Source of the DNA: Ariolimax columbianus
Taxonomy: Eukaryota; Mollusca; Gastropoda; Stylommatophora; Arionidae
Assembly (NCBI GenBank): GCA_036924085.1
Contig: JAVGWX010000019.1
Span: 17,592,131-17,656,130, forward strand
Reading direction: 5' to 3'
Length of the DNA stretch: 64,000 nt
The translations under genes and the position numbers were made by a program. The number at the start of each line of letters is the position of its first letter. Position 1 is the first letter of the stretch. The notes beneath the pieces were generated by a model that was given only the letters and a program-made list of their open reading frames with translations, did no database searches and was not told the DNA's origin. Below, piece by piece: positions 8,073 to 64,000 of the stretch.

Positions 8073-8992
8073 TCATCATCAGGTGCCCTGCCGGGTGGCG
8101 ATCATTGTCCTCCATCCGTTTCTATCATATGTGTCGTTTACCAACTCTATTTTTGATTCTCACCCGTGTCATTGACTCGGGATGTCCAACATCTTCTCTA
8201 TCTCTGCCTTCCTCTGTCTCTCTTTCCTGCTAACTTACTCTTTGTCACACCGTGCTCCAAACCACCTCATGCTCGAAAAATAAAACAGCTTTGTTCTGAT
8301 TCATTGCAGTGAGTTATTTTTATGTTTTTGCCTCTTCGAGTGCCGTATCATTAGTCTTCCTTGCAGCCCATGGAATCAGCAACATTCTTCTGTAACCACA
8401 TCTCAGTTGCTTCAAAGATATATACGCGTGCTTGCTGATTGTCCATGATTCACTGCCGTATGTCAGTACTAGTTCCACGTAGCTGCCAAGGATTATCTTT
8501 CTCAGTTTCAGCGACAAGGTTTTGTTGCGCAAGATTCCCTTCATGGTCTGGAAGACCAATATTGCATGGGTAGTTATGCATTTTATTTCGTAATTACATC
8601 TTCCTCTGATGTTATGTAAGTGTCCAAGTAATTAAACGTGTTAACTTGTCTCAATTTGGTCCCCTTCGCTTTGATGCAGCATTTTGGAGAGTCAGGTTTT
8701 TAAGTCACTATAATCACCTACGATTTCTTTGTATTTAAACTGAGGCCTTTGTTTTCACTTCGCTGAAATACATTGTTTACAATTTCCCACAAGTCGGTTT
8801 CATTCTGGGCTATCAATACAATATCATGGGCATATCGTAGATTGTTAATGTTCTGTCCGCCAATTGATATTCCTGGCATTGTCTGTATGTCTGTAAAGAT
8901 GAGCTCGCTGTATAGAGAGAACAGATCGGGGACAGAACACAACCTTGCCTTACATCCCTTTTTTAAATGTTTATAATCTCCCACTTGATTGT

Positions 8993-11863
8993 CAATTCTG
9001 TCCCCAATTCTTATAGCCGCAGTCTGTCCCTAACTCTTATAGCCGCAGTCTGTCCCCAATTCTTATAGCCGCAGTCCGTCCCCAATTCTTATAGCCGCAG
9101 TCTGTCCCCAATTCTTATAGCTGCAGTCCGTTTCCAATTCTTATAGCCGCAGTCTGTCCCCAATTCTTATAGCCGCAGTCTGTCCCCAACTCTTATAGCC
9201 GCATTATGTCCCCAATTCTTATAGCCGCAGTCTGTGCCCAATTTTCAGAGCCACAGTCTGTCCCCAACTCTTATAGCCGCAGTCTGTCCCCAACTCTTAT
9301 AGCCGCAGTCTGTCCCCAATTCTTATAGCCGCAGTCTGTCCCCAACTCCTAAAGCCGCAGTCTGTCCCCAATTCTTATAGCCGCAGTCTGTCCCCAATTC
9401 TTATAGCCGCAAGCTGTCCCCAACTCTTACAGCCGCAGTCTGTCCCCAACTCTTAAAGCCGCAGTCTGTCCCCAAATCTTATAGCCGAAGTCTGTCCCCA
9501 ACTCTTAAAGCCGCAGTCTGTCCCCATATCTTATAGCCGCAGTCTGTCCCCAATTCTTATAGCCGCAGTCTGTCCCCAACTCTTAAAGCCGCAGTCTGTC
9601 CCCAATTCTTATAGCCGCAGTCTGTCGCCAACTCTTATAGCAACAATCTGTCCCCAATCTTATAGCCGCAGTCTGTCCCCAACTCTTATAGCCGCAGTCT
9701 GTCCCCAACTCTTATAGCCGCAATCTGTCAACAACTCTTATAGCCGCAGTCTGTCCCCAACTCTTATAGCCGCAGTCTGTCCCCAACTTTTATAGCCGCA
9801 GTCTGTCCCAACTCTTATAGCCGCAGTCTGTCCCCAACTCTTATAGATGCATTCTGTCCCAAACTCTTATAGCCGCAGTCTGTCCCCAATTCTAATAGCT
9901 GGAGTCTGTCCCCAATTCTTATAGCCGCAGTCTGTCCCCAATTCTTAAAGCCGCAGTCTGTCCCCAATTCTTATAGCCGCAGTCTGTCCCCAACTCTTAT
10001 AGCCACAGTCTGTCCCCAACTCTTATAGCCACAATCTGTCCCCAATTCTTATAGCCGCAGTCTGTCCCAAATTCTTATAGCCGCAGTCTGTCCCCAATTC
10101 TTATAGCCGCAGTCTGTCCCCAATTCTTATAGCCGCAGTCTGTCCCCAACTCTTATAGCCGCAGTCTGTCCCCAATTCTTATAGCCACAGTCTGTGCCTA
10201 ATTCTTATAGCCGCAGTCTGTCCCCAACTCCTAAAGCCGCAGTCTGTCCCCAACTCTTATAGCCGAAGTCTGTCCCCAACTCTTAAAGCCGCAGTCTGTC
10301 CCCATATCTTATAGCCGCAGTCTGTCCCCAATTCTTATAGCCGCAGTCTGTCCCCAACTCTTAAAGCCGCAGTCTGTCCCCAATTCTTACAGCCGCAGTC
10401 TGTCCCCACCTTTTATAGCCACAATCTGTCCCCAATCTTATAGCCGCAGTCTGTCCCCAACTCTTATAGCCGCAGTCTGTCCCCAACTCTTATAGCCGCA
10501 GTCTGTCCCCAACTCTTATAGCCGCAGTCTGTCAACAACTCTTATAGCCGCAGTCTGTCCCCAACTCTTATAGCCGCAGTCTGTCCCCAACTTTTATAGC
10601 CGCAGTCTGTCCCCAACTCTTATAGCCGCAGTCTGTCCCCAACTCTTATAGATGCATTCTGTCCCAAACTCTTATAGCCGCAGTCTGTCCCCAATTCTAA
10701 TAGCTGGAGTCTGTCCCCAATTCTTATAGCCGCAGTCTGTCCCCAATTCTTATAGCCGCAGTCTGTCCCCAATTCTTATAGCCGCAGTCTGTCCCCAACT
10801 CTTATAGCCACAATCTGTCCCCAATTCTTATAGCCGCAGTCTGTCCCAAATTCTTATAGCCGCAGTCTGTTCCCAATTCTTATAGCCGCAGTCTGTCCCC
10901 AACTCTTATAGCCGCAGTCTGTCCCCAACTCTTATAGCCGCAGTCTGTCCCCAATTCTTAAAGCCGCAGTCTGTCCCCAACTCCTAAAGCCGCAGTCTGT
11001 CCCCAATTCTTATAGCCGCAGTCTGTCCCCAATTCTTATAGCTGCAGTCTGTCCCCAACTCTTATAGCCGCAGTCTGTCCCCAACTCTTATAGCCGCAGT
11101 CTGTCCCCAACTCTTATAGCCGCAGTCTGTCCCCAATTCTTAAAGCCGCAGTCTGTCCCCAACTCCTAAAGCCGCAGTCTGTCCCCAACTCTTATAGCCG
11201 CAGTCTGTCCCCAACTCTTAAAGCCGCAGTCTGTCCCCAACTCTTATAGCCGCACTCTGTCCCAAACTCTTAAAGCCGCAGTCTGTCCCCAATTCTTATA
11301 GCCGCAGTCTGTCCCCAATTCTTATAGTCGCAGTCTGTCCCCAATTCTTATAGCTGCAGTCTGTCCCCAACTCTTATAGCTGCAGTCTGTCCCTAACTCT
11401 TAAAGCCGCAGTCTGTCCCCAACTCTTATAGCCGCACTCTGTCCCCAACTCTTAAAGCCGCAGTCTGTCCCCAATTCTTATAGCCGCGGTCTGTCCCCAA
11501 CTCTTTTAGCCACAATCTGTCCCCAATTCTTATAGCCGCAGTCTGTCCCCAAATCTTATAGCCGCAGTCTGTCCCCAACTCTTTTAGCCGCAGTCTGTCC
11601 CCAACTCTTATAGCCGCAGTCTGTCCCCAACTCTTATAGCTGCAGTCTGTCCCCAACTCTTATAGCCGCAGTCTGTCCCCAACTCTGATAGCCACAGTCT
11701 GTCCCCAACTCTTATAGCCGCATTCTGTCCCCAACTCTTATAGCCGCAGTCTGTCCCCAATTCCTATAGCTGGAGTCTGTCCCCAATTCTTATAGCCGCA
11801 GTCTGTCCCCAATTCTTATAGCCGCAGTCTGACCCCAATTCTTATAGCCGCAGTCTGTCCCCA
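8993..11863 (-). repeat. 26-bp minisatellite, about 110 copies, inside RTE-B RT
   Basis: The unit (plus strand) is about GTCTGTCCCCAACTCTTATA + GCCGCA, 26 bp. On the minus strand it encodes GQTAAIRIGD-like residues, which are also the LINE's own RT sequence at this point: it is preceded by RKDLMITQ and followed by GDYKHLKKG. Because 26 is not a multiple of three the reading frame rotates every unit and repeats every 78 bp. Units carry scattered substitutions. Variant markers recur about 780-806 bp apart (ATAGATGCATTC at about 9842 and 10648; CCCATATCTTAT at about 9525 and 10304), showing higher-order block duplication. The 76-codon ORF at 11426-11656 is an artefact of this array. Confidence 0.95.
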
Positions 11864-12104
11864 AGACATACTTTGAGTGATCATGAGGTCCTTTCTATGT
11901 AAACATTTCAGCCTTTGGGTGAGCTCCATTTGTTGTACCCTGCCGAAAGCTTTAACATAATTTATGAAACACAGAAATACATCGACGTTCATCTCAATGG
12001 CTCTCTCAATTATCGTTCTTAGAATGGGTATGGAGTTGCTTTAGCCCTTGCCTTCTATGAACCAGTATCTGGTTTGATGCTACTCCTCACTCTTCTCGTG
12101 ATGG

Positions 12105-13522
12105 TTCGCATTGGTGGCTCATGAGGCTGATATTGCGGTTCTCGTGGCAATCAATGGCTCATGAGGCTGATAGTGTGGTTTTCCTGGCATTCAATGGCTC
12201 ATGGAGCTGATAGGGCGATGATTCTGGCATTCAATGGCTCATGAGGCTGATAGGCCGCTGCTCCTGGCATTCAATGGCTCATGAGGCTGATAGGGCGATA
12301 CTCCTGGCAGTCAATGGCTCATGAAGCTGATAGGGCGATTCTCCTGGCATTCAATGGCTCATGAGGCTGATAGGGCGATGCTCCTGGCAGTCAATGGCTC
12401 AAGCGGCTGATAGAGCGCTGCTCCTGGCAGTCAATGGCTCAAGAGGCTGATATGGCGATGCTCCTGGCAGTCAATTGCTCATGAAGCTGATAGGGCGATG
12501 CTCCTGGCAGTCAATCGCTCATGAGGCTGATAGTGTGGTTTTCCTGGCATTCAATGGCCCAAGAGGCTGACAGGCCGCTGCTCCTGGCATTCAATGGCTA
12601 AAGAGGCTGATAGTGCGATGCTCCTGGCATTCAATGGCTAATGAGGCTGATAGGCCGCTGCTCTTGTCATTCAATGGCTCATGAAGCTGATAGGGCGATG
12701 CTCCTGGCATTCAATGGCTCATGAGGCTGATAGTGTGGTTTTCCTGGCATGCAATGGCTCATAGAGCTGATAGGGCGATGCTCCTGGCATTCAATGGCTC
12801 ATGAGGCTGATAGGGCGATGCTCCTGGCAGTCAATGGCTCAAGAGGCTGATAGGGCGCTGCTCCTGGCAGCCAATGGCTCAAGAGGCTAATTTGCGATGC
12901 TCCTGGCAGTCAATTGCTCATGGAGCTGATAGGGCGATGCTCCTGGCATTCAATGGCTCATGAGGCTGATAGGGCGATGCTCCTGGCAGTCAATGGCTCA
13001 AGAGGCTGATAGGGCGCTGCTCCTGGCAGCCAATGGCTCAAGAGGCTAATTTGCGATGCTCCTGGCAGTCAATTGCTCATGAAGCTGATAGGGCGATGCT
13101 CCTGGCAGTCAATGGCTCATGAGGCTGATAGTGTGGTTTTCCTGGCATTCAATGGCCCAAGAGGCTGACAGGCCGCTGCTCCTGGCATTCAATGGCTCAA
13201 GAGGCTGATAGGGCGATGCTCCTGGCATTCAATGGCTCATGAAGCTGATAGGGCGATGCTCCTGTCATTCAATAGCTCATGAGGCTGACAGGCCGCTTCT
13301 CCTGGCATTCAATGGCTCATGAGGCTGACAGGCCGCTGCTCCTGGCATTCAATGGCTCAAGAGGCTGATAGGGCGATGCTCCTGGCATTCAATGGCTCAT
13401 GAGGCTGATAGTGTGGTTTGCCTGGCATTCAATGGCTCATGAGGGGTATAGGGTGATGCTCCTGGCATTCAATGGCTCATGAGGCTGATAGTGCGATGCT
13501 CCTGGCAGTCAATGGCTCATAT
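12105..13522 (-). repeat. 40-bp minisatellite, about 35 copies, inside RTE-B RT
   Basis: Unit about CTCCTGGCATTCAATGGCTC + ATGAGGCTGATAGGGCGATG. On the minus strand it encodes DCQEHRTISLMSH, the conserved RT motif corresponding to YRPISLLS in the I-like LINE at 31944. LINE sequence flanks both sides. Frequent variants are GTGTGGTTTTC (at about 12165, 12525, 12725, 13120, 13405) and a shortened AATTTGCGATG unit at about 12890 and 13045, so blocks of several units have been copied together. Confidence 0.95.
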
Positions 13523-13925
13523 TGTGTTTTGCAGTAATATGAACGTTGATTTCATACAAACATTCGGAATATATCCAAAATCGCTAATATCATTCAACAA
13601 TTGTTATCACACTTATCACGAACACTCGCACGGCCGTAATTTCCTCTATTGTTATGTTATCTGACCCTGGTGCCTTTCCTTTCTGTATATGCTGTATTGC
13701 GCTCTCTACATCTGTCACCTGTATTGATGGCCTGTCACATTCGACCAGTTTAATTTAGCCTGGTCTGTCATTATCGTACAATTCGCCGACGTACTCTGTC
13801 CATCTTCCAACTAGATCATCGTGTCCCATCAAAACTGTCCCACCCTTTGCTTTCAAGTATCTGATGGGCGTGCGTGCCATTCTCCCTGTTAATTCATTTA
13901 CTCCTTATATATATGTATAATTGTA

Positions 13926-20683: not shown

Positions 20684-21375
20684 ATGAACCCAAACAAAGA
20701 AGAATGCAGATATTCAACACGAGTTCGGAATAGAGGAAAAATGGTTGTACCCAAACAAAGAAGAATGCAGATAGTCGACACAATTGTGGAATAGAGGAAA
20801 AATGGTTGTACCCAAACAAAGAAGAATGCAGATATTGGACACGAGTTTCGGGATCAAGATGCTGAGCAGCACATGAGCTGCAGTGGTCAGCAACCCATAG
20901 CTGACTGCTAGCGTCAGGGCCAGCGAACCATAGCTGCCAAGACCCTTCTACACCTCCACGCGGTGATCCTGGATAACAGGCTGCAGCAGGGCAGACTGGC
21001 TAAGGAGAAGGGATCGAAGAGGGAATGCTAACCCGGTACTCAAAAAATGCTTGCTGAAGTCGGATGTGTTGGACCGCAAGGTGCAAATATCGCAGCCAAG
21101 CTGTAAACTGCAACACAACGCATTCCGTTCTCTGGACTACATTCTGCTACTTACCCTTTCAGGGTTTGGTAGTGGGAGATTGAGAACGAACGAAGAAAAA
21201 GAAGAAGAAGAAGAAGGACACGAGTTTCGGAATAGAGAAAAACTGGTTGGACCAAAACAAAGAAGAAGGCAGATATTCGACACGAGTTCGGAATAGAGGA
21301 AAACTGGTTGTACCCAAACAAAGAAGAAGGCAGATATTCGACACTAGTTCGGAATAGAGGAAAACTGGTTCATAA
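20684..21375 (+). repeat. 61-bp array from RTE-A coding, 5-6 copies, split by a SINE
   Basis: Unit of 61 bp beginning ACCCAAACAAAGAAGAATGC and ending ATGGTTGT, encoding TKKNADIQHEFGIEEKWLY. Copies lie at 20689-20851 and 21216-21375. The parent LINE segment (KKTNADIRQELSIEQNWSI at 31.7 kb) is single-copy in the nested RTE-A. Confidence 0.85.
20852..21215 (+). mobile_element. 364-bp SINE, complete, (GAA)n tail, 15-bp TSD
   Basis: The TSD GGACACGAGTTTCGG is perfect at 20837-20851 and 21216-21230. The 5' end is GATCAAGATGCTGAGCAGC, an end shared with minus copies finishing at about 42505 and 46645, so this is a defined start. The 3' end is GAGATTGAGAACGAACGAAG followed by (GAA)n. It contains the shared core at 21052-21120 (GCTGAAGTCGGATGTGTTGG) that also occurs in the I-like LINE 5' UTR and the tRNA-derived SINE. 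No ORF. Tail and TSD start suggest mobilisation by the I-like LINE machinery (inference). Confidence 0.92.
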
Positions 21376-23616: not shown

Positions 23617-24665
23617 GGTAAAATATTAAAATCTGTGGAGAATCATGAAGGAAATGGGGTTTTCTTTGCATATAGTCCTTCTCATTGAAACATTATACCG
23701 AAATCAACAAGCCGCTGTCTGGGCAAACATCGGATTGGTTTGCAGTACAAAAGGGAGTCCGACAGGGATGTATTCTATCATCTTATCTGTACAACATATA
23801 CGCAGAATGTATAATAAGAAAGGTTCGATAAAACAAGAATATTCAAAGTCTCGACCCATTTATGATTGGGGGGTACGAGATTCCAGAGTAACAATATGCA
23901 GATGACACAGTGATACTATCAAGACGTGCATAAAGGTTAGAGCAGCTACTTTCAGCCGTTAATGGACATAGTAAAGATTAAAACCTGTTCATAAACATAA
24001 ATAAAACAATGATAAAGACCACAAAACACAATGTCAGCATAAATTTACAGTGGGTGGTGAGGAAATAGATCAGGTCATACATTTTGAATATATGGGCTAC
24101 AGAATTGACAAAAATGGCGACTACTCGAAATAAATCAGAAGAAGACTAGCTATGGCAATGCAGAGACTGAACAGCCTGAAAAAAATATGGCAGAGCACCA
24201 ACAAAATGATAAAAGTAAAAGTCTTGAGAGCCTGTGTTTTTCCTGTGGCAGCTTATGGCTGTGAATAATGGACGATTACCAAAACGTCTAGACAAAGAAT
24301 CGAATCCTTCGAGTCAAAATGTTACAAAAAGATCCTCAAAATACCCTGGACAGAGAAAAAAAACAAATGTAGACATTCGGCAAGAGCATAGAGGAGAACT
24401 GGTTTATCAATTTCATTTTGGCTAGAAAATGCAAATACTTTGGTCGCATCAAGAGACACAACGGTCTTGAGAGAACAGTGATGGAAGGTATGGTGCCAGG
24501 CAAAAGAGGAAGGGGTAGACCAAGAAGACGATGGCACCAAAATATCCAGGAATGACTGGGTATGATCGGCGCGGAGGCTGGAGTTTTGGCAAGAGGATGA
24601 GTTTCTTTCAGACAGACTGTGATGGGAGCGACGTTCTACAGAGGACATGCTACATGATGATGATG
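23617..24665 (+). mobile_element. RTE-A LINE, 5'-truncated, 11-bp TSD, (GAT)n tail
   Basis: The TSD ATCTTCAGTAC is perfect at 23606-23616 and 24666-24676. The 1049-bp insert covers the RT from the KEMGF..HIVLLIETLYRNQ segment, through a decayed GSPTGMYSIILSVQHI (PYLYN-type box) and a TICR*HSDTI stretch (YADDT box), to CVFPVAAYG, KNRILRVKMLQKDPQNTLD and the 3' ARKCKYFGHIKRHNGLE-type C-terminus. It ends in ATGATGATGATG. Multiple stops. Confidence 0.92.
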
Positions 24666-30769: not shown

Positions 30770-31228
30770 TGTTATGATGTTATGTATGTTCCCAGGTATT
30801 TGCATCTTCCATCTGATGTTATGTTTGTTCCCAGGTATTTGCATCTTCCACCTGATGTTATGTATGTGCCGAGGTATTTGCATCTTCCATCTGATGTTAT
30901 GTATGTGCCGAGGTATTTGCATCTTCCATCTGATGTTATGAATGTGCTCAGGTATTTGCATCTTCCATCTGATGTTATGTATGTGCCGATGTATTTGCAT
31001 CTTCCATCTGATGTTATGTATGTGCCGATGTATTTGCATCTTCTATCTGATATTATGTATGTGCCGATGTATTTGCATCTTCTATCTGATATTATGTATG
31101 TGCCCAGGTATTTACATCTTCCATCTAATATGTATGTGCCCAGTTATTTACATCTTCCATCTGATGTTATGTATGTGCCCAGTTATTTACATCTTCCATC
31201 TGATGTTATGTATGTGCCCAGGTATTTA
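30770..31228 (-). repeat. 39-bp array from RTE-B coding, about 12 copies
   Basis: Unit TTTACATCTTCCATCTGATG + TTATGTATGTGCCCAGGTA. On the minus strand it encodes YLGTYITSDGRCK, a standard RTE post-RT motif. The same single-copy segment is at 8592-8635 (-) in the RTE-B copy, and RTE-B sequence continues on the right (31229-31385). ORFs in other frames on both strands are artefacts. Confidence 0.93.
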
Positions 31229-31385: not shown

Positions 31386-31852
31386 GTAACAACATAGTTG
31401 AACAAAATAAGACAATTAGATAGCATGAAAACATAACATAATTTACCAGGACAATTTGACGACACATAACAGTATCATCATCATGAAGCATGTCCTTTGT
31501 AGAAAGTCGCTCCCATCACAGTCTGTCTGAAAGAAACTCGTTCCCTTGGAAAAACACCAGCATCCGCCACAGTCGTAGCCAGGCACTCCTGGATATCTTG
31601 GTGCCATCGTCTTCTTGGTCTACCCCTTCCTCTTTTGCCTGGCACCATACCTTCCATCACCGTCCTCTCAAGACCGTTGTGTCTCTTGATGTGACCAAAG
31701 TACTTGCATTTTCTAGCCAAAATGGAATTGATAGACCAGTTCTGCTCTATGCTCAACTCTTGCCGAATGTCTGCATTTGTTTTTTTCTCTGTCCAGGGTA
31801 TTCTGAGGATCTTTCTGTAACATTTTGACTCGAATGATTCGATTCTTTGTCT

Positions 31853-34800
31853 TCTGATCATAAACAACTGCTGCCTTGCAGATAGGCTGGGGACAGCCAA
31901 AGGCTAAGGAGGGCATCCCTACAGAAACGCCTGTTGAAATCGGATGCACGGGGCCGCAAGCCTAACAAAACAGTGCAACGTAAATCACAGTATGATGGCA
32001 GTACAACCTATTAGAAAAACGCATGGCGCTCATCCTGCGGAGTCCCGCCAGGCAGCGATAGTGCCGGGCCTCACGCCTCGAAGGGGCCCACCCTTGACTA
32101 CTGGTGGTCACCCACCCATGTGTCGTGGAGTCAAGGCACATGGCTATGGGGCAACTTCTATTGGCCAAAACCTCAAGACCCTCAAAATACTACAGTGGAA
32201 TGCGGAGGGAGTCATTAACAAAAAACTTTCCCTAACACACCACCTGCATGAAGGCAAGATTGACGTGGCATGTATCCAGGAAACGCACCTCAACAATAAC
32301 CATAAATTCTCAATCAGAGGATATCAGACCTTCCGTCTAGATAGAGAAGGCCACAAAGGACGGGTCCTGATACTGACCAGAAACTGCATACCGAGTAGCG
32401 CGGTATCTGTCAATCACACCGGACAAGCAGAAATTGTAGGAGTTGACATAATGGCTCAAGAGACGAAGCTCCGCATTTTCAATCTGTACGGACCACCAAA
32501 CAGAGACCTATCGCTCTCGAGTATGGAGGTCAGAGACTCCAACTGCATAGTAGTTGGAGATTTCAACAGCCACTCGGAGAGATGGGGATACTCTGACACA
32601 GACAGCAGAGGTGACGAAGAGGAAGATTGGGAGATAGATGCAAATCTCTCCCTAATCAATAGGCCGGAGGATAGCCCTAGCTTCTATTCAAGAACATGGC
32701 ATACCACCTCGACTCCAGATTTGGCCTTCTCCACACAGGACATACACCATAAAATAGACCGCCAGGTGCTAAACCAACTGGCAGGTAGCGACCACAGGCC
32801 GATCAGGCTAACCATTGACATGGAAGTAGGCCCACAGGAAACAAATCCGCTCCCACGTTGGAATTACAAACGAGCCGACTGGGACAGATTTGCAATCCTG
32901 ACAGATGGGCTGTGTGAAACCATCAACACACGAAACACCAAAATGAAGCCCATGGTAGAGAGCCTAAGCAAGGCAATAATGCAAGCCGCCACTGAAACCA
33001 TCCCAAGAGTAGCTGGGAAAAACTATAAGCCCTACTGGAATGATGAGTTGCAGAAAGTGGAAGATGCAGTAACAAATGCTAGGAACATGGCAGAGCGAGA
33101 AAAATCCACGGAGGCAAACATCGCCCTCAAAGCCGCCGCGGCGAAGTACAAACACACTCTCAAGCAAACAACAAGAGAAAGCTGGAAAAATAAAACGGAA
33201 AGTCTAAACCTGGACAAAGACGGGAACAAGCTATGGAAGCTAGTCAGAGCCATGAACGACGAAACCCCGTCAAATAAACAAATTACTATCAAGCAGGGCG
33301 AGAACTTGATCACAGGTAAGAAAGCCGCAAACGCCTTTGTCGATCACTATGCCAGAGCAAACCACATCGAGGTCCCTGCAGATAAGCATACAGACATTAG
33401 CGAAGAGCTAAAGGGACACAAAAACATGAATACAGCTCCTGAAGAGCACATGATGGCCAAACTAACAATGCGCGAAATGGAAGAGGCAATGAGAACACTA
33501 AAGAAAAGGAAATCTCCCGGAAAAGACGGGATAACAAACGAAATGCTGATGGGGCTGGGCAAAACAGCGAAGAAGAAACTGCTATCGGTTCTGAACCAAA
33601 GCTGGAAAAGGGGAATTGTACCACAGGCATGGAAAGATGCAATACTGGTACCAGTACCAAAAACAGGAAAGGACAAAACAGATCCAAATGGATACAGGCC
33701 CATAAGCCTACTGAGCTGTGTCGGCAAGCTGATGGAACGGATGATAAACACCAGACTGATGTGGCATCTGGAAGAAAAACGAATACTAATTCCACAGCAA
33801 GCCGGCTTTAGACAGCACAGATTCACTGAGGACCAGGTCATCCTCATAGCCCAAGAGATAGAAGATGCCTACCAGGCACAGAAACACACAGTAGCTGTTT
33901 GGGTGGATCTGGAAAAGGCATTTGACAAAGTCTGGAAAGATGGACTTAGAGTCAAGCTAAGAAGAAGTGATGTCTGTGGGAAGATGTACAAGTGGATCAA
34001 CCACTACCTCAAACAAAGAACGGCCAGAGTCCAAGTACAAGGGCAGATGAGCAAAAAGGTGACACTCGAGCAGGGAATACCCCAAGGGGGAGTATTGTCA
34101 CCCACACTCTTCCTGGTATATATAAACGATATTACAGAGAATATACCAAGAAGAGTCCATAACTCAATGTTTGCAGACGATCTGGCTATGTGGACCTCTG
34201 AAAAGAATCTCACCATAGCAAGAAATCGGATGCAGACGGCCCTAACATCGCTGGAAGAGTGGGCGAACTCATGGCTGGTCAAAATAAACGAGGAGAAAAC
34301 CACATGCACAATATTCTCGCTTTCATTAAAACCCCAAAGTACCAAATTAAGTCTAAATGGCAAAATCCTGCAGCCAAACGACAACCCAACCTATCTGGGA
34401 GTCACATTTGATTGGCGCATGACATGGAAAAGTCAGATTGAGAGAAACCGAATGAAAGCCAGAGAAAGAATGGCAATCATGAGGAAACTTGCTGGCACAA
34501 GCTGGGGAGCAGACGAAGGCATACTAAAGAAACTGTACACTGGAAGAGTGAGACCAGTTCTCGAGTATGGCATTGCGGCATGGACAACAGCAGCGAAGGC
34601 GAACTTCGATAAAGTTAACAAACTTCAAAACCAAGCCATGAGAATTATAACAGGTGGCATGAAGTCAACGCCAATTGTAGAACTTGAAAAGATTACAAAA
34701 CTGCAATCCATGACCGATAGAAGAGACTGCAGAGCCCAGCTGCAGTCAGAGAAACTCCGAAGACTGACGGACCATCCAATGTACCAGAGACTAAACAATT

Positions 34801-35662
34801 TGGGAAATGGGACACTAAAGCGGAGAAACTTTGCAGAAATAGACAAAGCAAAGATGCACGAAGATCCCATAAACACACTAACAACACCAAAACCCATCAC
34901 TACTGTACGAAAACCTACCTGGAGGCAGGATATATTTCCAGAGGTGGTAGAAAATATACCAGGTATTGCAAACAAAAACTGCCAGACTGAAAAAGAAAGG
35001 AGAGACACTACCCTAAGCTTCATAACGAAAAACTACCTGCTGACAGATGCTCTCGCCGTAGTCACAGCGCTAAAAAGCCAGAAAAACACTGAGCTTAATG
35101 ACTTAAGAGCAGCACTCTGCAAACTGTGCCAGCAGTCCGCACCAAAAAGGGTAGTGGTACAGTGGGTTCCGTCACACTGCAACATCCAAGGCAACGAGGA
35201 GGCAGACAGACTGGCAAAAGAAGGTGCACGACTACCACAAACAGATACCAGTATGACGTACGAAGAGTCAAAACGGCTTATCAAAGCCAGATACATGACC
35301 AAATGGGAAACCGAACATACTGGTTACACCAAAAACGATGCCTATTACCAGTTGAACCGAAGAGAGCAGGTCGTTGTCTTCAGACTTCGCACTGGCCACA
35401 ACAGACTGAGGTACCACCTATTCAACAAATTGAAGATAGGGTGTACCGACGAATGCCCGTGCGGTACTGGTAAAATGACCACTGAACATCTGCTGCAGAA
35501 CTGCCCGACATACGAGGATCAGAGAGAGCAGATGTGGCCATTACCAGTGGAACTGCAAGACAAGCTCTATGGCAGTGGCGAGAGCCTCAGGATGACCGCC
35601 GCTTTTTTCGAAAAAATAATGGTTACTGTCTGACTGTGTACGCAGAAGAAAAAGAAGAAGAA
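31853..35662 (+). mobile_element. I/Nimb-like LINE, full-length insertion with 12-bp TSD
   Basis: The TSD GATTCTTTGTCT is perfect at 31841-31852 and 35663-35674 and falls inside the RTE-A element, whose sequence resumes on both sides. The 3810-bp insert has a 5' leader of about 91 bp carrying the core shared with SINEs (about 31932-31985), one 1229-codon ORF (31944-35633), a 3' end CTGACTGTGTACGCAGAAG and a (GAA)n tail. No gag-like ORF1 is present, although the ends are defined by the TSD. EN + RT + RNase H order places it in the I superfamily; Nimb is my best guess. Confidence 0.93.
31944..35633 (+). CDS. LINE polyprotein: endonuclease, reverse transcriptase, partial RNase H
   Basis: One uninterrupted frame of 1229 codons. 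The first ATG follows an in-frame TGA 7 bp upstream. Residues about 80-292 are an exonuclease/endonuclease/phosphatase-fold nuclease: N86 (LQWNAEG), E113 (CIQETH), D206/N208 (GDFNSH), D283/H284 (SDHRPI). Residues about 515-830 are the RT: KSPGKDG, YRPISLLS, D655 in VWVDLEKAFD, IPQGGVLSP and the FADD box at 743-746. Residues about 1030-1095 are the C-terminal half of RNase H (TDAL D1035, EEAD D1088). A C-x-C-x8-H-x4-C motif (C1171, C1173, H1182, C1187) follows. Compared with 40355-41164, about 225 bp encoding TDGS and the RAE region are missing in frame, so two RNase H catalytic acids are lost. The coding state suggests recent insertion; whether it is active is unknown. Confidence 0.92.
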   Translation: MHGAASLTKQCNVNHSMMAVQPIRKTHGAHPAESRQAAIVPGLTPRRGPPLTTGGHPPMCRGVKAHGYGATSIGQNLKTLKILQWNAEGVINKKLSLTHHLHEGKIDVACIQETHLNNNHKFSIRGYQTFRLDREGHKGRVLILTRNCIPSSAVSVNHTGQAEIVGVDIMAQETKLRIFNLYGPPNRDLSLSSMEVRDSNCIVVGDFNSHSERWGYSDTDSRGDEEEDWEIDANLSLINRPEDSPSFYSRTWHTTSTPDLAFSTQDIHHKIDRQVLNQLAGSDHRPIRLTIDMEVGPQETNPLPRWNYKRADWDRFAILTDGLCETINTRNTKMKPMVESLSKAIMQAATETIPRVAGKNYKPYWNDELQKVEDAVTNARNMAEREKSTEANIALKAAAAKYKHTLKQTTRESWKNKTESLNLDKDGNKLWKLVRAMNDETPSNKQITIKQGENLITGKKAANAFVDHYARANHIEVPADKHTDISEELKGHKNMNTAPEEHMMAKLTMREMEEAMRTLKKRKSPGKDGITNEMLMGLGKTAKKKLLSVLNQSWKRGIVPQAWKDAILVPVPKTGKDKTDPNGYRPISLLSCVGKLMERMINTRLMWHLEEKRILIPQQAGFRQHRFTEDQVILIAQEIEDAYQAQKHTVAVWVDLEKAFDKVWKDGLRVKLRRSDVCGKMYKWINHYLKQRTARVQVQGQMSKKVTLEQGIPQGGVLSPTLFLVYINDITENIPRRVHNSMFADDLAMWTSEKNLTIARNRMQTALTSLEEWANSWLVKINEEKTTCTIFSLSLKPQSTKLSLNGKILQPNDNPTYLGVTFDWRMTWKSQIERNRMKARERMAIMRKLAGTSWGADEGILKKLYTGRVRPVLEYGIAAWTTAAKANFDKVNKLQNQAMRIITGGMKSTPIVELEKITKLQSMTDRRDCRAQLQSEKLRRLTDHPMYQRLNNLGNGTLKRRNFAEIDKAKMHEDPINTLTTPKPITTVRKPTWRQDIFPEVVENIPGIANKNCQTEKERRDTTLSFITKNYLLTDALAVVTALKSQKNTELNDLRAALCKLCQQSAPKRVVVQWVPSHCNIQGNEEADRLAKEGARLPQTDTSMTYEESKRLIKARYMTKWETEHTGYTKNDAYYQLNRREQVVVFRLRTGHNRLRYHLFNKLKIGCTDECPCGTGKMTTEHLLQNCPTYEDQREQMWPLPVELQDKLYGSGESLRMTAAFFEKIMVTV

Positions 35663-39335: not shown

Positions 39336-39340
39336 ATCCT

Positions 39341-41196
39341 TCAAGTACAAGGTCAGATGAGCAAAAAAGGTGACACTTAAGCAGAGAGTACCCCAAGGGG
39401 GAGTACTGTCACCCCCACTTTTCCTGGTGAATATAAACAACATCACAGAGAATATAGCAAGAAGAGTCTACAGCTCCATGTTTGCAGACGATCTGGCTAT
39501 GTGGACCTCTGAAAAAAATCTCACCATAGAAAACTATAGGATGCAGCAGGCCCTAACACCGTTGGAGGAATGTGCGAACTCATGGCTGGTCAAAATAAAT
39601 GAGGAAAACACAACATGTACGATATTCTCGCTTTTAAATAAACCCCAGAACACCAAAATAAGTCCTAACGGCAAATATCTGTGGCAAAACGACAACCCAA
39701 ACTACCTGGGAGTCACATTTGATCGGCGTATGACATGGAAAAGTGAGATCGAGAGAAACCGAATGAGAGACAGACAGACAAATAATGGCAATCATGAGGA
39801 AACTTGCTGGCACAAGCTGGGGAGTAGACGAAAGTATACTAAAGAAACTGTACACTGGAAGAGTGAGACCAGTTCTCGAGTATGGCATTGCGGCATGCAT
39901 AACAGCAGCAAAGGCGAACTTTGATAATATGTGCATACTTCAAAACCAAGCCATGAGAATAATAACAGGAGGCATGAAGTCAACGCCAATTGTAGAACTT
40001 GAGAAGATTACAATTCTGCAATCCATGACCGACAGAAGAGACTGCAAAGCCCAGCAGCAAGCATAGAAACTCAGAAGACTGACAGACCATCCAATGTCAG
40101 AGACTAAATAGATTTGAAAATGGGAAAATAAAGCGGAGAAACTTTCAGAAATAGCCAAAGCAAAGATGAGCGAAGACCCTATGAACACCGTAACAATACC
40201 AAAAGCCAATCCCTATTGTATGCAAACCTACCTGGAAGCGGCATATCATTCCAGAGGTGGCAGAAAATATACCAGGTATTGGAAACAAGAACAGCCAGAC
40301 TGAAAAAGAAAGAAGAGACATACCCTGAGGTACATAACGGAAAACTAATCAAGCATGGACTGGACCAATGCATACACCGACGGCTCTGTAACAAACACAA
40401 CACAGAACGGAGGGGCAGGGGTATTTTTGCGCATACTAAATGGTAGAAAAACAACACTGTCAGTGGCAACTGGAAAATTCTCAAGCAATTTCAGAGCGGA
40501 GCCAGAGGCACTGAGGGCTGCAGTAGAAGCAATGATGACAGACGAAAGCAATGCAAGCCAGATAGTCCTGTTTACAGATGCCCTGGCCGTAGTCACAGCA
40601 CTAAAAAGCCAGAAAAATACTGAACTTAATGATTTAAGAGCACAACTCTGTCAACTGTGCCAGCAGTCCGCACCAAAAAGAGTAGTGGTACAGTGGGTTC
40701 CATCCCACTCTAACATCCAAGGCAACGAGGAGGCAGACAGACTGGCAAAAGAGGGTGCACGACTACCACAACCAGATTCTAGTGTGACCTACGAAGAGTC
40801 CACAAGGTTTATTAGGGCCAGATACATGGCCAAATGGGAAACAGAACATACTGGCTACACAAAAAATGATTCCTATTACCAGTTGAACAGAAAAGAGCAG
40901 GTCGTGGTCTTCAGACTCCGCACAGTCGACAACAGACTGAGGTACCACCTATTCAATAAACTGAAGATAGGTGGCACTGACGATTGCAGTTGTGGTACCG
41001 TAAAAATGACCGCTGAACATCTGCTGCAAAATTGCCCGACATACGAGAACCAGAGAAAGCACATATGGCCATCACCAGTAGCAACACTAGACAAGCTCTA
41101 TGGCAGTGTCGACAGCCTCAGGATGACCGCTGCTTTTTTCGAAAAAATACAGGTTGATGTCTGACATCGTACGAAGAAGAAGAAGAAGAAGAAGAG
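39341..41196 (+). mobile_element. I-like LINE, 5'-truncated, intact RNase H region
   Basis: Starts in the RT at AAGTACAAGGTCAGATGAGC (VQGQMSKK) and ends CTGACATCGTACGAAG(GAA)n at 41196. ORF 39370-39924 covers PQGGVLSPPLFLVNINNI and the FADD box. A frameshift at about 39780 moves to 39785-40066, with more breaks to about 40340. It is about 90% identical to the full-length copy. TSD not found. It sits directly against a CR1-like tail. Confidence 0.9.
40355..41164 (+). pseudogene. RNase H and CCHC region of the truncated I-like LINE
   Basis: An open 269-codon frame: AYTDGSVT (first catalytic D), SNFRAEPEALRAA (E), LFTDALAVV (D), VVQWVPSHSNIQGNEEADRL (last D), then VVFRLRTVDNRLRYHLFNKL and C-x-C-x8-H-x4-C (CSCGTVKMTAEHLLQNC). 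All four RNase H acids are present, so this copy shows what the nested full-length element has lost. As part of a 5'-truncated copy without a promoter it is unlikely to be expressed by itself. Confidence 0.9.
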
Positions 41197-42150: not shown

Positions 42151-42159
42151 TTCCTTCTT

Positions 42160-42510
42160 CTTCGTTCTCAATCTCCCGCTACCAAACCATTAAAGGGCTT
42201 AAGTAGCAGAATGTAGTCCCGAGAACGGAATGCGTTGTGTCGTAGTTTACAGCTTGACTGCGATATTTGCACTTTTTGGTCCAACTCATCCGACTTCAGC
42301 AAGCATTTTTTGAGTACCGGGTTAGCATTCCCTCTTCGATTCCTTCTCCTTAGCCAGTCTGCCCTGCTGCAGACTGTTATCCAGGAGCACCGTGTGGAGG
42401 TGTAGAAGGGTCTTGGCAGCTCTGGTTAGCTGGCCCTGACGTTAGCAGTCAGCTATGAGTCGCTGACCACTGCAGGTCAAGCGCTGCTCAGCATCTTGAT
42501 CCCTTACTAA
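42160..42510 (-). mobile_element. 364-bp SINE, full-length copy
   Basis: On the minus strand it starts GGGATCAAGATGCTGAGCAG at about 42510 and ends GAGATTGAGAACGAAGAAG at about 42160. About 85% identical to the TSD-bounded copy at 20852-21215. Confidence 0.88.
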
Positions 42511-42539: not shown

Positions 42540-43090
42540 ATACAAAAGGGATTGAGGCATCTGTGTGTACTGTCCCCTGATCTGTTCTCCGTGTACAGCG
42601 AATTTATATTGCAATATCTAGAGACATGAACTGGAATATTAATTAGGGGGACATAATATACAAAAACGTGAGTTACACTGATGGCATTGTGTTAATAACG
42701 CAGAATGAGGTCCATTTGCAAGAACTTGTCAAAATGGTAGTTCTTTAAAGCGAAAATAAAGGCTTCAGCTTAAATCAAAATAAATCAGATGTAATGATGG
42801 TATCTAAGAAGCACACATCTTCAATATGTTTTATAATGTTGGAAGAAACTGAGCTAAACAAGTACACAATTATTACAATATTTGGTCACGCGCATCAGTT
42901 CTATTGAGAGACACAGTTAGGAAATAAAGAACAGAATAGTCAATACAAAATCAGTCTTCCAGAGTGTGATGGGAATCTTGTGCAGCAAAAGTATATCACT
43001 GGAAGAGAGTTCTTGGATGCTACATGGAACCAGTACTGGCATTCGGCAGCGAGCCATGGACAATCAGCAGGCACGTACATAAAGCATTGG
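42540..43090 (+). pseudogene. RTE-B-like LINE fragment
   Basis: Encodes in several frames CVLSPDLFSVYSEFILQYLE, a decayed DGIVLITQNEVHLQELVK (YADDxVL box) and ENKGFSLNQNKSDVMMVSKK, then LEPVLAFGSEPWTISRHVHK + ALEAAE. The same order as RTE-B at 8.3-9.0 kb (-). No tandem array here. Confidence 0.8.
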
Positions 43091-43134
43091 AGGCAGCTGA
43101 ATACTTACCTGGGGGCCACTCTTCCCCTTCTCTC

Positions 43135-43710: not shown

Positions 43711-43712
43711 GA

Positions 43713-44412
43713 TCATCATCATGTGGCATGTCCTTTGCAGAACGTCGCTTCCATCACAGCCTGTCTGAGAGAAACACGCTCTTTTGCAAAACCTCTAGCC
43801 TGCTGCAGAGTCCAGCTCAAGCATTCCTTGACAAATTGGTGCGATCGCCTTCTTGGTGTGCCTCTGCATCTCTTGTCCGACACCATACCTTACATTACCA
43901 TTTTTTCAAGACGGGTGGGTCTTTTGATGTTGCCAATGTATTAACATTTTCTGTTCTTGGTGGAATGTATGTGCCTTTTCACCTTTATGCCCGTCTCTAT
44001 GCCCACCTATGTGCCCACCTCTATGCCCACCTCTATACCCACCTCTGCCCACTTTTATGCTCACCTCTATACCACCTCAATGCCAACCTCTATGCCCACC
44101 TCTGCCCACCTCTATGCCCACCTCTATGCCCACCTCTGCCCACCTATATGCCTACCTATATGCTCACCTCTGTCCACCTCTGCCCACCTCTATGCCCCCT
44201 CTGCCCACCTCTATGCCCACCTATATGCCTACCTCTATCCTCACCTCTGCCCACCTCTGCCCACCTCTATGCCCACCTCTGCCCACCTCTTTGCCCACCT
44301 CTATGCCCACCTCTATGCCCAACTCTAATCGAATATATCTATTCTTCTTTTGTTTCAGCCCCTGGTATTCTGAAGACCTTTCTATAACATTTCGACTTGA
44401 AGAACTAGCTTC
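43713..44412 (-). mobile_element. RTE-A LINE 3' end with internal array
   Basis: Minus strand: the 3' tail (GAT)n is at 43713-43723, preceded by the coding 3' end of RTE-A (the same GACATGCCACATGATGATGA junction). Upstream, RTE-A sequence CAGAATACCAGGGGCTGAAA, related to the LINE at 31.8 kb, borders the array. Confidence 0.85.
43978..44328 (-). repeat. 10/12-bp array from RTE-A coding
   Basis: Units CCACCTCTATGC and CCACCTCTGC alternate over 350 bp. The flanking LINE has CTCTATGCTCAACTCTTGCC (as at 31747), and the last unit reads CTCTATGCCCAACTCTAATC before normal RTE-A resumes, so the array grew from this segment (minus strand, part of IRQELSIEQNW coding). Plus-strand M/P/T/H-rich ORFs are artefacts. 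Confidence 0.88.
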
Positions 44413-44770
44413 TTTTCCATCAGGTAAGATAGAATATAATACGAATATTTTCTAAATAATTGCGCAATATTGTGAACTTTTCAACAAAGAAAAAAAAACA
44501 TTGCATAATGTAACTCAAATGCTAGAACATGATGAACAGGCACTCTTCGTAATTATTCAGAAGCTCAGAAAAATATGTATCAATATTACAGTCACACCAC
44601 GAATCTCGCATTTGGAAAAGTCACACGGTCTGTAGGTTATGGGAGCGGTGGCAATGATAATGTCGTGTTTGTTTCATCTACAGCTCGATTCAGGATGTCG
44701 TGTTTGTCTCTTCTGTTTGCTTGGTATTTGAATTGTAATTTTTTTGTTTGTTAACGTTTATAGGTTTTAG
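44413..44770. other. Unassigned spacer
   Basis: Nothing recognised. Confidence 0.3.
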
Positions 44771-46140: not shown

Positions 46141-46645
46141 TTTTTCTTCTTCGTCGTTCGTTCTCAAACTCCAGCTACCAAGTCCTGAACGTTATCAATT
46201 CCTGCTGCCAAGTCCTGAACGTTCTCAAACTCCCGCTACCAAGTCCTGAACGTTCTCAAACTCCCACTACCAAGTCCTGGACGTTCTCAAACTCCCACTA
46301 CCAAGTCCTGGACGTTCTCAAACTCCGGCTACCAAGCCCTGAAAAGAGCTTTGTAAGTAACAGGATGTAGTCAAGAGAACGGAATGCGATGGAATTTACA
46401 GCTTGACTGCGATATTTGCAACTTTAGGTCCGACATATCCAATATCAGCTTGCCATTTTTGGGGTACCGGGTTAGCCTTCCCTTTTCGATCCCTTCTCCT
46501 TAGCCTTATTTAGCCTGTTATTTAGTATCAACATACGGAGGTAATGTAGTATCTAAGCAGCTCTGATTTGCTGGCCCTCAAGCTGGCACTCTGCTTCGGG
46601 TCTCTGAACGCTACAGCTCCTCCGCTGCTCATCATCCTGATCCCG
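46140..46645 (-). mobile_element. 364-bp SINE with internal 31-bp array, inserted in RTE-A
   Basis: Minus strand: 5' end GGGATCAGGATGATGAGCAG at about 46640, 3' end with GAACGACGAAGAAG at about 46145. The last segment before the tail is repeated about five times (46165-46340). The flanks GACTTGA and GACTCGA look like a diverged TSD in RTE-A. Confidence 0.8.
46165..46340 (-). repeat. 31-bp array from the SINE 3' end, about 5 copies
   Basis: Unit GTTCTCAAACTCCCGCTACC + AAGTCCTGAAC. In the other SINE copies the corresponding CGTTCTCAATCTCCCGCTAC is single. Confidence 0.88.
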
Positions 46646-47099
46646 ACTCGAAGTACTCAATTCTCTTCCTTGAGGTTTGGGTAGCTGTCCATATTTTGCA
46701 GCAGTATGCTGCTACGGTCAAAAAAATTGTTCTCAAAATGTTCACTTCTGTTGCTTTGCTTGGATTCTGTGATAGTTTCCTTCAGATAAACGAATACAAA
46801 TTTATACTTTACTATTTTCCCAAAATTCAACCATAGACAGTATTTTTTAAATATTTCAGGCAGTGAAAAGACGTTTCCCTTTTTCTTCTTCTGCTCTTCT
46901 ATCAAACTGCTTGGACACAATAGTCACGACTCCTTTTCTGCTTGTTTTAGTGCCTGTTTTTGTACTATTTTGTCTGCATTTGACATTACCGATTTAAAAC
47001 TTTTTGGTTGACATGTCAATTCATATTTAATTGTATTCCAGGCTTTCAGCCACTCATTCCATCCACTTTATTTGGATTTCCTCCTGCAAATGATCTTGT
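46646..47099. other. Weak RTE-A remnant, then unassigned
   Basis: GACTCGAAGTACTCAATTCT at about 46644 aligns with the RTE-A GACTCGAATGATTCGATTCT. Beyond about 46720 nothing is recognised. Confidence 0.4.
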
Positions 47100-47112
47100 A
47101 ATCCTGGTATTC

Positions 47113-50037
47113 TTCTTCTTCTTCGTATGCTGTCAGACGTCAACTTGAATTTGTTCGAAGAAAGCAGCTGTCATCCTGAGGCTGTCGACACTGCCATAGA
47201 GCTTGTCTAGTGTTGCCACTGGTGTTGGCCACATGTGCTTTCTCTGGTCCTCGTATGTCGAGTAATTTTGCAGCAGATGTTCAGCGGTTATTTTTCCTGT
47301 ACCACAAGGTACATTCGCCAGTGCCACCTATCTTTAGTTTATTGAATAGATGGTATCTCAGGCTGTTGTGGACTGTGCGGAGTCTGAAGACCACGACCTG
47401 CTCTCTTCTGTTCAACTGGTAGTGGGCATCATTTTGTGTGTAGCCGGTATGTTCTATTTCCCATTTGGCCATGTATCTGGCCCTAATAAACCTTTTGAAC
47501 TCTTCGTAGGTCACACTAGAATCTGGTTGTGGTAGTCTTGCACCTTCATTTTCCAGTCTGTCTGCCTCCTCGTTGCCTTGGATGTTACAGTGGGATGGAA
47601 CCCACTGTACCACTACTGTTTTTTGGTGCGGCCTGCTGGCATAGTTGACAGAGTACTGCTCTTAAATCATTAAGTTCGGTATTTTTCTGGCTTTTTAGTG
47701 CTGTAACAACGGCCAGGGCATCTGTAAACAGGACTATCTGGCTTGCATTGCTTTCGCCTGTCAGCATTGCTTTTAATGCATCCTTCAGTGCCTCTGCCTC
47801 CGCTCTGAAATTGCTTGAGTATTTTCCAGTTGCCACTGACAGTGTTATTTTTCTACCATTTGTTAGGCTCAGGAATACCCCTGCCCCTCCGTTCTGTGTT
47901 TGTTACAGAACCGTCGGTGAATGCATAGATCCACTCCATGCTTGGGTAGTTTTCCGCTATGTACCTCAGCGTTATGTCTCTTCTTTCTTTTTTTCCGTCT
48001 GGCTGTTCTTGTTTCCAATACCTGGTATATTTTCTACCACCTCCGGAATTATATGCTGCTTCCATGTGGGCTTGCGTACAATAGGGATAGGCTTTGCTAT
48101 TGTTAAGGTGTGCATAGGGTCTTCGCTCATCTTTGCTTTGGTTATTTCTGCAAAGTTTCTCCACTTCAGTTTCCCTTTTTGCAAATCCATTTAGTCTCTG
48201 ATGCATTGGATGGTCTGTCAGTCTTCTGTGTTTCTCTGTTTGCTGCTGGGCTCTGCAGTATCTTCTGTCGATCATGGATTGCAGATTTGTAATCTTTTTA
48301 AGTTCTACAATTGGCGTTGATTTCATGCCTCCTGTTATAACTCTCATGACTTGGTTTTGAAGTTTGCTAATTTTATCAAAGTTCGCCTTTGCTGCTGTTG
48401 TCCATGCCGCAATGCCATACTCGAGAACTGGTCTCACTCTTCCAGTGTACAGTTTCTTTAGTATGCTTTCGTCTACTCCCCAGCTTGTGCCAGCAAGTTT
48501 CCTCATGATGGCCATTCTTTGTCTGGCTCTCGTTCGGTTTCTCTCGGTCTGACTTTTCCATGTCATACGCTGATCAAATGTGAGGCCAAGTAGTTTGAGT
48601 TGTCGTTTGGCCGCAGATATTTGCCGTTTAGACTTATTTTTGTGTTCTGTGGTTTATTTGAAAGCGAGAGTATCGTACATGTTGTTTTTTCTTCATTTAT
48701 TTTGACCAGCCATGATTTCGCCCACTCCTCCAACGATGTTAGAGCCTGCTGCATCCGATTGTTTGCTACGGTGAGATTTTTTTCAGAGGTCCATATAGCC
48801 AGATCGTCTGCAAACATGGAGCTGTGGGCTCTTCTTCGTATATTCTCTATGATGTTGTTTATATACACCAGAAAAAGTGTGGGTGACAGTACTCTCCCTT
48901 TGGGTGCTCCTTGCTCCAGTGTCACCTTTTTGCTCATCTGCCCTTGTACTTGAACTCTGGCTGTTCTGTTTTTGAGGTAGTGGCTGATCCATCTGTACAT
49001 TTTCCCACAAACTTCACTTCTTCGTAGCTTGACTTTAAGTCCCTCTTTCCACGCTTTGTCAAATGCCTTCTCTAGATCGACCCAAACCGCTACTGTATGC
49101 TTTTTCTGTTGGTAAGCATACTCTATTTCCTGTGCTATGAGAGTGACCTGGTCCTCAGTGGATCTGTGTTGTCTAAATCCTGCTTGCCGTGGAATTAATA
49201 TGTGTTTTTCTTCCAGGTGCCACATCAGTCTGGTGTTTATCATACGCTCCATCAGTTTTCCTACACAGCTCAGTAGACTGATAGGCCTGTATCCATTTGG
49301 ATCTGTTCTATCTTTCTCTTTCTTTGGTACTGGTATAAGTACAGCATCTTTCCATGCCTGCGGTACAATTCTCTTTTTCCAGCTTTGGTTCAGGACTGAT
49401 AGTAACTTCCTCTTTGCTGTTTGGCCCAACCCCATCAGCATTTCGTTTGTTACCCCATCTTTTCCTGGCGATTTCTTTTTCTTTAAAGTTCTCATGGTCT
49501 CATTCATTTCATTCATCGTTAGTTTTGCCATCATGTGCTCCTCTGGTGCAATATTGATGTTGTCGTGGCTCTTTTGTTCTTCACTAATGTCTGTATGCCT
49601 GTCTGTAGGGACATCAATGTGGTTTGCTCTGGCATAATGTTCTATAAAGGCGTTTGCTGCTTTTTTCCGGTAAGCATGTTGTCACCCTGCTTGATGGTAA
49701 TTTGTTTATTTGATGTTGTTTCGTCATTCATGGCTCTGACTGACTTCCATAGTTTGTTCCCTTCTTTATCTAGATTGAGGCTTTCTGTTTTTTTTCCCCA
49801 ACTGTCTCTTGTTATTTGGTTCAGTGTTCTTTTGTATTTCGCAGTGATGGCCTTGAGGGCGATACTTGCTTCCATGGATTGCTCTCTCTCCCTCTGCCAT
49901 GTCCCTAGCTTTTGAGACTTCATCCTCAGCTTTCTGCAGTTCATGATTCCAATATGGCTTGTAGTTTTTCCTTGCCCCTCTTGGGATGGTTTCGGTGGCT
50001 ACTTGCAGTATTGCTTTGCTTAGGCTTTCCACCATAG
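47113..50037 (-). mobile_element. I-like LINE, 5'-truncated, 13-bp TSD
   Basis: The TSD AATCCTGGTATTC is perfect at 47100-47112 and 50038-50050. On the minus strand the 2925-bp insert begins at MVESLSKAILQVATETIPRG (between EN and RT) and ends GACGTCTGACAGCATACGAA(GAA)n. The RT is open over 49534-48563 (KKKSPGKDGVTNEM, YRPISLLSCVGK, VWVDLEKAFDKAW, SSMFADDLAIW). Frameshifts follow at about 48565, 47850, 47585 and 47300. RNase H AFTDGSVTN, FRAEAEALK, LFTDALAVV and GNEEADRL are all present, so the RNase H deletion at 35.03 kb is private to that copy or its lineage. Confidence 0.95.
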
Positions 50038-63176: not shown

Positions 63177-63229
63177 CTAGAATAGAGTAGCGGTTTTCAG
63201 AACTGAGAGGGCCTGTAGCGGTGACAGAG

Positions 63230-63800: not shown

Positions 63801-64000
63801 TGATAAGAGATAATGTGGGTATGGCACTAGAACTAACGGAGCAATGTGACATAGAATGAAGGTTGTAAGTGACAACAACCTGACTGGGTTATACGAGAAG
63901 GGCTCATCGGAGTATATAACAATGGCACGTGGGGATATGGAGGCTGCGTGGCCAGTTTGGTAAACACTGAAGTTTTCTCTCAAGCGATTGCTCCTCTACG
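63801..64000. other. Unassigned end of window
   Basis: Nothing recognised. Confidence 0.3.

Follow-up and report, generated by a model that had tools for sequence, protein, structure and literature searches.

Internal segments of one long interspersed element (LINE) family occur as minisatellites at many loci in the genome of the gastropod Ariolimax columbianus. We consider it probable that this family carries recurrent internal seed sites, at which seeds arise at about the time a copy inserts and then grow locally. The copy described first lies in a 64,000-nucleotide stretch (C19:17592131-17656130 in a 2.29-Gb assembly; hereafter the window) and contains two arrays, each grown from the element's own reverse-transcriptase sequence at that point. 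COX1 on contig C401 (22.7 kb) of this assembly is most similar to sequences of stylommatophoran and other panpulmonate gastropods, with Deroceras as the best match (90%).

Two minisatellites within one LINE copy

Tandem Repeats Finder (TRF) placed a 26-bp array at 8997-11864 (period 26, 110.4 units, 91% matches) and a 40-bp array at 12115-13520 (period 40, 35.2 units, 86% matches). An earlier sequence-only reading of this DNA had put them at 8993-11863 and 12105-13522, within about 10 bp of these positions. It had also estimated that they add about 4.3 kb, which agrees with the 4.27 kb that the arrays contribute to a 5.83-kb stretch of LINE plus array. The parts of the copy are as follows (tblastn used relatives of the LINE reverse transcriptase):

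8073-8996, minus strand: 3′ part of the LINE (C-terminal reverse transcriptase and beyond), single copy (tblastn match at 8082-9168; translation ...RIDNQVGDYKHLKKG...NNLRYAHD)
8997-11864, minus strand: 26-bp minisatellite, 110 units, from the LINE segment WGQTAAIRI (TRF; single-copy counterparts in 37 of 49 sister copies)
11865-12114, minus strand: middle part of the reverse transcriptase between the arrays, which served as an array-free probe (translation; tblastn match at 11799-12255)
12115-13520, minus strand: 40-bp minisatellite, 35 units, from the LINE segment (A)IECEEHRTISLMSH (TRF; single copy in locus L029 and in 30 of 34 copies)
13521-13905, minus strand: upstream part of the LINE (tblastn match at 13392-13904)

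The three parts outside the arrays are consecutive pieces of one LINE reverse transcriptase, as expected from the claim that LINE sequence continues on the outer sides of the arrays. That claim needs qualifying at two joins. On its left side, the 26-bp array finishes in a shortened unit that joins the LINE imperfectly, and LINE bases are partly lost beside the low-coordinate end of the 40-bp array. Similarly, the identity of the 26-bp unit with the element's own sequence holds for WGQTAAIRI, while the final "GD" of the WGQTAAIRIGD originally proposed is made by the repeat junction, as single-copy elements read WGQTAAIRINNQVGDY.

We identified 51 protein relatives of the window LINE, including endonuclease-reverse transcriptases from the sea slugs Plakobranchus and Elysia. 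The reverse transcriptase domain RVT_1 (PF00078) is matched by relatives P0001, P0006, and P0020, which in turn match the window copy; two of these three scanned relatives (P0006 and P0020) also have an endonuclease domain. RTE-B, the clade named in the sequence-only reading, is a putative label. The position of the 26-bp unit (W.Q.AA.R) is single in all 23 aligned relatives, and a four-residue extension behind this motif is present only in the window's collapsed copy and in none of the 23. In the same alignment, the relatives that reach the 40-bp site contain HRTISLMSH or a near form, once each.

The founder segments are single in most sister copies

To sample copies without regard to arrays, we used the array-free middle segment as a query and scored the best 40 of 245 candidates. 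A second query, the middle segment of another copy, yielded 379 candidates, of which the best 40 were scored. From the first list, 37 of the 39 non-window loci were newly fetched, the other two being L013 and L020. The second list contributed 12 new loci: nine newly fetched, L014, L069, and C15:68537053, the last read from the search listing alone. Both samples lean toward copies that resemble the query.

The 26-bp site was readable in 49 of the 51 loci (all except L029 and L091) and was single in 37 and tandem in 12, three of which (L031, L037, and L043) are exact dimers. Two copies counted as single, L058 and L059, break off directly behind the unit, and L060 was counted as single despite a stray second match. 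The 40-bp site was readable in 34 loci and was single in 30 and tandem in four (L013, L014, L020, and a dimer in L056); this count leaves out L055, which is cut off within the unit, and L060, which is cut off just before it. The site was not reached in 13 of the first 37 loci. Four of these (L042, L057, L062, and L063) have a 45/49-bp array at a third site of the LINE, and nine run into other sequence. The sequence-only reading had proposed that founder segments should be single in most other copies, and this is so at both sites.

Arrays recur genome-wide and lie within LINE copies

A search with 296 bp of the 40-bp array gave 62 matches; 40 of 57 candidate loci were scored, window included. 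Many of the weaker matches cover about one unit. All of the 20 best-ranked loci fetched besides the window contain a 40-bp-type array at the same site of the same LINE, with TRF units of 37, 40, 41, 45, or 48 bp. BLAST detected the LINE on both sides of 16 of these arrays and on one side in L019, L023, L024, and L025; the upstream match in L019 is in opposite orientation. With the 26-bp array as query, the best 39 of 81 candidate loci were scored, window included, revealing 26-bp arrays at at least 38 other loci. We fetched 20 of 29 further scored loci. BLAST found a LINE flank on at least one side in 19 and on both sides in 13. The flank of L085 was recognized by eye only, and L082 and L083 lack the LINE on the 5′ side.

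Thus, all 40 fetched array loci have a LINE flank (39 by BLAST and one by eye), and arrays outside the element, which would mark a satellite family, were not seen among them. For the fetched loci, we therefore rejected a genome-wide satellite unlinked to LINEs, one of two possibilities that the sequence-only reading had named as refuting it. The related proposal that an unrelated satellite inserted into LINEs, or that the similarity is due to chance, is scarcely credible given this linkage and the fact that each unit is the LINE's single-copy sequence at that point in sister copies. The arrays instead have the hallmarks of minisatellites derived from transposable elements (TEs): the unit is a segment of the host element, the element lies on both sides of the window arrays and of most others, and most sister copies have the segment once. 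Long tandem arrays are hard to assemble, and array lengths here are as assembled, but an artefact or a collapsed or expanded repeat is very improbable, as the arrays vary from unit to unit, are flanked by the LINE, and are present on many contigs at dozens of loci.

Other copies also hold more than one array. Two, three, or four arrays per LINE copy were found at fetched loci, with three in L009 and four (42, 36, 26, and 41 bp) in L014, and the window contains a third array of the same family at 30775-31227. The idea that two large arrays are a peculiarity of one copy is not supported. In addition to the 26- and 40-bp sites, the LINE has other seed sites, with units of 30, 36/39, 38, 42/54, and 45/49 bp. 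On the model set out below, there is nothing unusual about the window copy, in which two of these sites, at least seven in all, have given rise to arrays. The 38-bp array of L009 (L009:6909-9901), which occupies a different site in the LINE, has at least 80 units and runs off the fetched end. The 26-bp site was readable in 15 of the fetched 40-bp loci and carried an array in six (L009, L014, L016, L019, L020, and L021) and a single copy in nine. Co-occurrence of the two arrays was not significant, as 26-bp arrays were present in 6 of these 15 loci versus 8 of 36 copies picked by the middle segment (P = 0.30). The two window arrays can be called independent, as they had been, relative to each other; the term need not extend to each 26-bp seed having arisen anew in each LINE copy.

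The two array sites at base level

At the 26-bp site, single copies read TATTGGGGACAGACTGCGGCTATAAGAATTAACAATC, with the unit reaching from one ATT to another 26 bp away. This 3-bp ATT is the only exact match one unit apart, although an imperfect ATA.G.ATT repeat is visible, and no direct repeat of 5-10 bp bounds the founder. At each of the 20 fetched 26-bp loci, the printed edges show the junction AAGAATT/GGGG (the slash marking the join) or a point variant of it, and the same junction, allowing point changes, was present in all 35 26-bp tandems examined. The ends of the window array had suggested that the element natively contains an 11-bp direct repeat, TTGGGGACAGA, with its copies 26 bp apart. 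This candidate was rejected because single-copy sisters show that the array itself creates it.

At the 40-bp site, the upstream side is CACGAGCCATTGA, and the downstream side in single copies is mostly CATGAGTCACTTGA. The downstream base after GAG was C, completing GAGCCA, in 17 of 22 array copies (the window, the 20 fetched loci, and L056) versus 6 of 30 single copies (Fisher P = 6e-5). The copies with C are not kin: identity was 81.5% between C-type copies, 86.1% between T-type copies, and 83.6% between the two types. Either the better match favours seeding or the array overwrote its own edge. The 41-bp units in L014 and L026 have their junction at TTGA instead. L029, the nearest sister of the window copy by the middle segment (92% identity over 215 columns, branch 100/95), has the 40-bp site once. 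RNA folding of the sites, done without checking the strand, revealed no significant structure (z = -1.07, -0.58, and 0.45).

Age and descent of the arrays

The three dimers at the 26-bp site allow the age of the duplication to be compared with that of its host copy. The two units differ by 15% (L031), 19% (L037), and 23% (L043); if both dated from insertion, the expected difference, twice the divergence of the host from the family, would be 18%, 19%, and 13%, respectively. As the observed values are near twice the host divergence, each duplication looks to be of roughly the same age as its host insertion (n = 3).

Copies with arrays do not cluster. We placed 32 array copies and 35 single copies on a tree, omitting loci whose site could not be read or that aligned over too short a stretch. 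The 26-bp array label required 22 changes on this tree, compared to 22.5 for shuffled labels. Identity was 82.7% within array copies, 84.4% within single copies, and 83.6% between them. Array and single copies did not differ significantly in age (0.096 versus 0.087, P = 0.12), nor did those among the copies picked by the middle segment (0.073 versus 0.079, P = 0.46).

Proposed repeated seeding and its rivals

A model that accommodates these data is that internal LINE segments of this gastropod family act as recurrent minisatellite seeds. In this model, the segment at a seed site would become a head-to-tail dimer at or before insertion of the copy, through slippage or template jumps between short or imperfect matches spaced by one unit. 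Each dimer would then grow and homogenise in place, through replication slippage or unequal exchange, resulting in 2 to 110 units with locus-specific variants. We infer both the seeding step and the expansion mechanism.

Several observations weigh against this model. The ATT match at the 26-bp site ranks 97-129 among about 4,100 matches in seven of 10 copies and is absent in three. Microhomology therefore fails to explain the 26-bp hotspot. The common junction of the 35 26-bp tandems would also suit one inherited dimer. At the 40-bp site, the edge C could stem from the array by homogenisation, and the exact GAGC match was present in none of 10 single copies checked; single copies mostly have a broken match (TTGA in six of the 10, CATGAG plus TTGA in one, and neither in three). 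One alignment column differs between array copies (A 13, G 10, C 1) and single copies (A 3, G 22), with 4 of 100 label shuffles reaching a P value as low. A double change, AAGGG for AAGAA, is common to four arrays, whose flanks resemble one another slightly more than those in random draws do (0.865 versus 0.828; 3.6% of draws). Moreover, the LINE tree has a star-like shape, and few of its forks are supported. Two pairs in the middle-segment tree that joined copies of opposite state (L034/L062 and L031/L064), a candidate line of support, did not hold when longer flanks were compared.

Some of these points suit a different history, in which one or a few source elements already had the 26-bp (and perhaps the 40-bp) duplication, retrotransposition spread the dimer, and only growth was local. 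Such inherited seeds would account for an identical junction despite a 3-bp match, for dimers as old as the insertions, for the column enriched in array copies, and for the AAGGG variant common to four arrays. They fit poorly with an array label that is unclustered and lacks a clear diagnostic set, with 40- and 41-bp junctions that differ, with the single 40-bp site in L029, the nearest sister of the window copy, and with a C that accompanies 40-bp arrays without being a mark of kinship. Further, since 26 and 40 are not multiples of three, a dimer-bearing source would have had a broken reading frame. We favour repeated seeding over inherited seeds, which we regard as a possible but rather unlikely source of the arrays.

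A stronger form of repeated seeding can be envisaged. The LINE may have a fixed set of internal positions where, by template jumping, reverse transcription itself copies a short segment twice as the element inserts, such that about a quarter of new copies are born with a seed that later grows without limit. An inverted repeat beside the 26-bp site (GGGGACAGA/TCTGTCCCC) perhaps aids such jumping. We hold this version to be speculative, with the odds against it. If it is true, retrotransposition would be a machine that makes minisatellites at preset positions.

Arrays could also have spread between LINE copies after insertion by ectopic gene conversion. Consistent with exchange, the unit variant CTGGGG (for CTGCGG) is the majority form in 11 of 32 arrays versus 2 of 28 single copies (P = 0.013), without relatedness of the flanks. 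The same variant suggested a drive by runs of G as a speculative alternative. LINE copies are just about 83% alike, an identity that is unfavourable for gene conversion, and we judge this route improbable.

Relation to known minisatellites

Minisatellites derived from TEs, and hotspots within TEs, are known; the scale and the base-identical recurrence described here are new. In humans, 7,276 of 31,472 minisatellites are TE-derived, with hotspots in AluS and in the long terminal repeat (LTR) LTR12, and for only 6% of them may two established mechanisms account for how they began (Ahmed and Liang, 2012; PMC3389668). For LTR12, these authors proposed that a duplication spread from its source by retrotransposition and that later growth was local. 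The arrays of our LINE resemble the human ones in being born in TE copies at or after insertion, in expanding in place, and in having hotspots within TEs; we also count as a likeness that a minority of the human arrays is flanked by direct repeats of 5-20 bp (PMC3389668). They differ in size, as human Alu arrays average 2.3-2.4 units while those here reach 110 units, with several arrays per copy. The human hotspots are broader regions or are attributed to repeats that pre-existed in the source (PMC3389668), whereas here the same junction occurs in the coding regions of many LINE copies.

Haber and Louis (1998; cited via PMC3389668 and PMC6947457) described the birth of minisatellites through slippage or unequal exchange involving short repeats on either side. 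The 40-bp site is possibly similar, with GAGCCA/TTGA matches 40 or 41 bp apart bounding its founder and array copies enriched for the matching base, an enrichment that edge homogenisation could mimic; the 26-bp site, with its 3-bp exact match, is not. Minisatellites from Alu, B1, and LTRs are reviewed in PMC6947457, and satellites from LINE ORF2 in PMC9659126. As in the variable number tandem repeat family from the mouse short interspersed element (SINE) B1 and in human Alu minisatellites (Bois et al.; Jurka and Gentles; via PMC6947457 and PMC3389668), many loci derive from motifs of a dispersed element, but the source here is LINE coding sequence rather than a SINE. The ORF2-derived PROsat of Phodopus, Pvc20 of seal, and chicken HinfI (PMC9659126) are likewise tandem repeats from LINE coding sequence. 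Unlike these satellite DNAs, each array that we fetched lies inside its own LINE copy. Where two slug genome papers (PMC9392753 and PMC10770140) treat LINE content and the detection of tandem repeats, we did not see recurrent LINE minisatellites, and a survey of titles and abstract openings in the open-licence PMC literature found none tied to set positions in LINE coding sequence.

Minisatellite birth is usually inferred from one locus at a time. This LINE family offers dozens of replicate copies, in which the same site exists in single, double, and many-unit states in one genome, making birth, growth, and homogenisation measurable. The divergence of each LINE copy provides an internal clock, and effects of seed bases can be read from natural variants. 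The family also shows how a TE-rich gastropod genome converts old LINE coding sequence into minisatellites.

Other arrays and repeats in the window

Beyond the copy at 8073-13905, the window contains further arrays and copies of LINEs:

30775-31227, minus strand: 39-bp minisatellite, 11.7 units, in another copy of the same LINE family, from the segment KYLGTYITSDGRC (none of 500 shuffles equalled the match of the unit to the single-copy sequence near 8590-8625)
42541-43100, plus strand: diverged copy of the same LINE family, 67% alike (sequence comparison)
43980-44327, no strand assigned: 12/22-bp array within a copy of a second LINE family, whose pieces at 43712-43952 and 44311-44415 correspond to 31474-31714 and 31745-31848, respectively
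20688-21370, plus strand: 61-bp array from the second LINE family, interrupted at 20850-21197 by a dispersed repeat of about 350 bp (TRF and sequence comparison)

The LINE around the 39-bp array extends to about 31380. The 12/22-bp array probably derives from the second LINE family, as its unit resembles the single-copy founder in one of the two reference copies compared (at 31700-31800, 0 of 500 shuffles did as well; at 24380-24480, 7 of 500 did).

Arrays of period 10 or more make up 18.1% of the window, where they merge into 24, and 20.1% of the 20 fetched 10-kb loci, a set that was itself chosen for arrays. By our tests, most of the window arrays do not derive from LINEs. Together, the window and these 20 loci have 115 arrays whose period is at least 18; 78 of them do not match the LINE reference pieces, a count that misses some LINE-derived arrays, such as the 26-bp array of L009. 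Another LINE, present in three copies that are 84-90% alike (32952-35037, 39340-41187, and 47110-50035), has no TRF-listed minisatellite, unlike older LINE copies. A 45-bp array at 63228-63805 has a read-through that resembles, by eye, the C-terminal end of LINE proteins (KDRWRDVVGTKN). In addition to the copy that splits the 61-bp array, the dispersed repeat of about 350 bp occurs at 42155-42503 and 46313-46646, and a 31-bp array at 46159-46343 resembles this repeat and probably derives from it.

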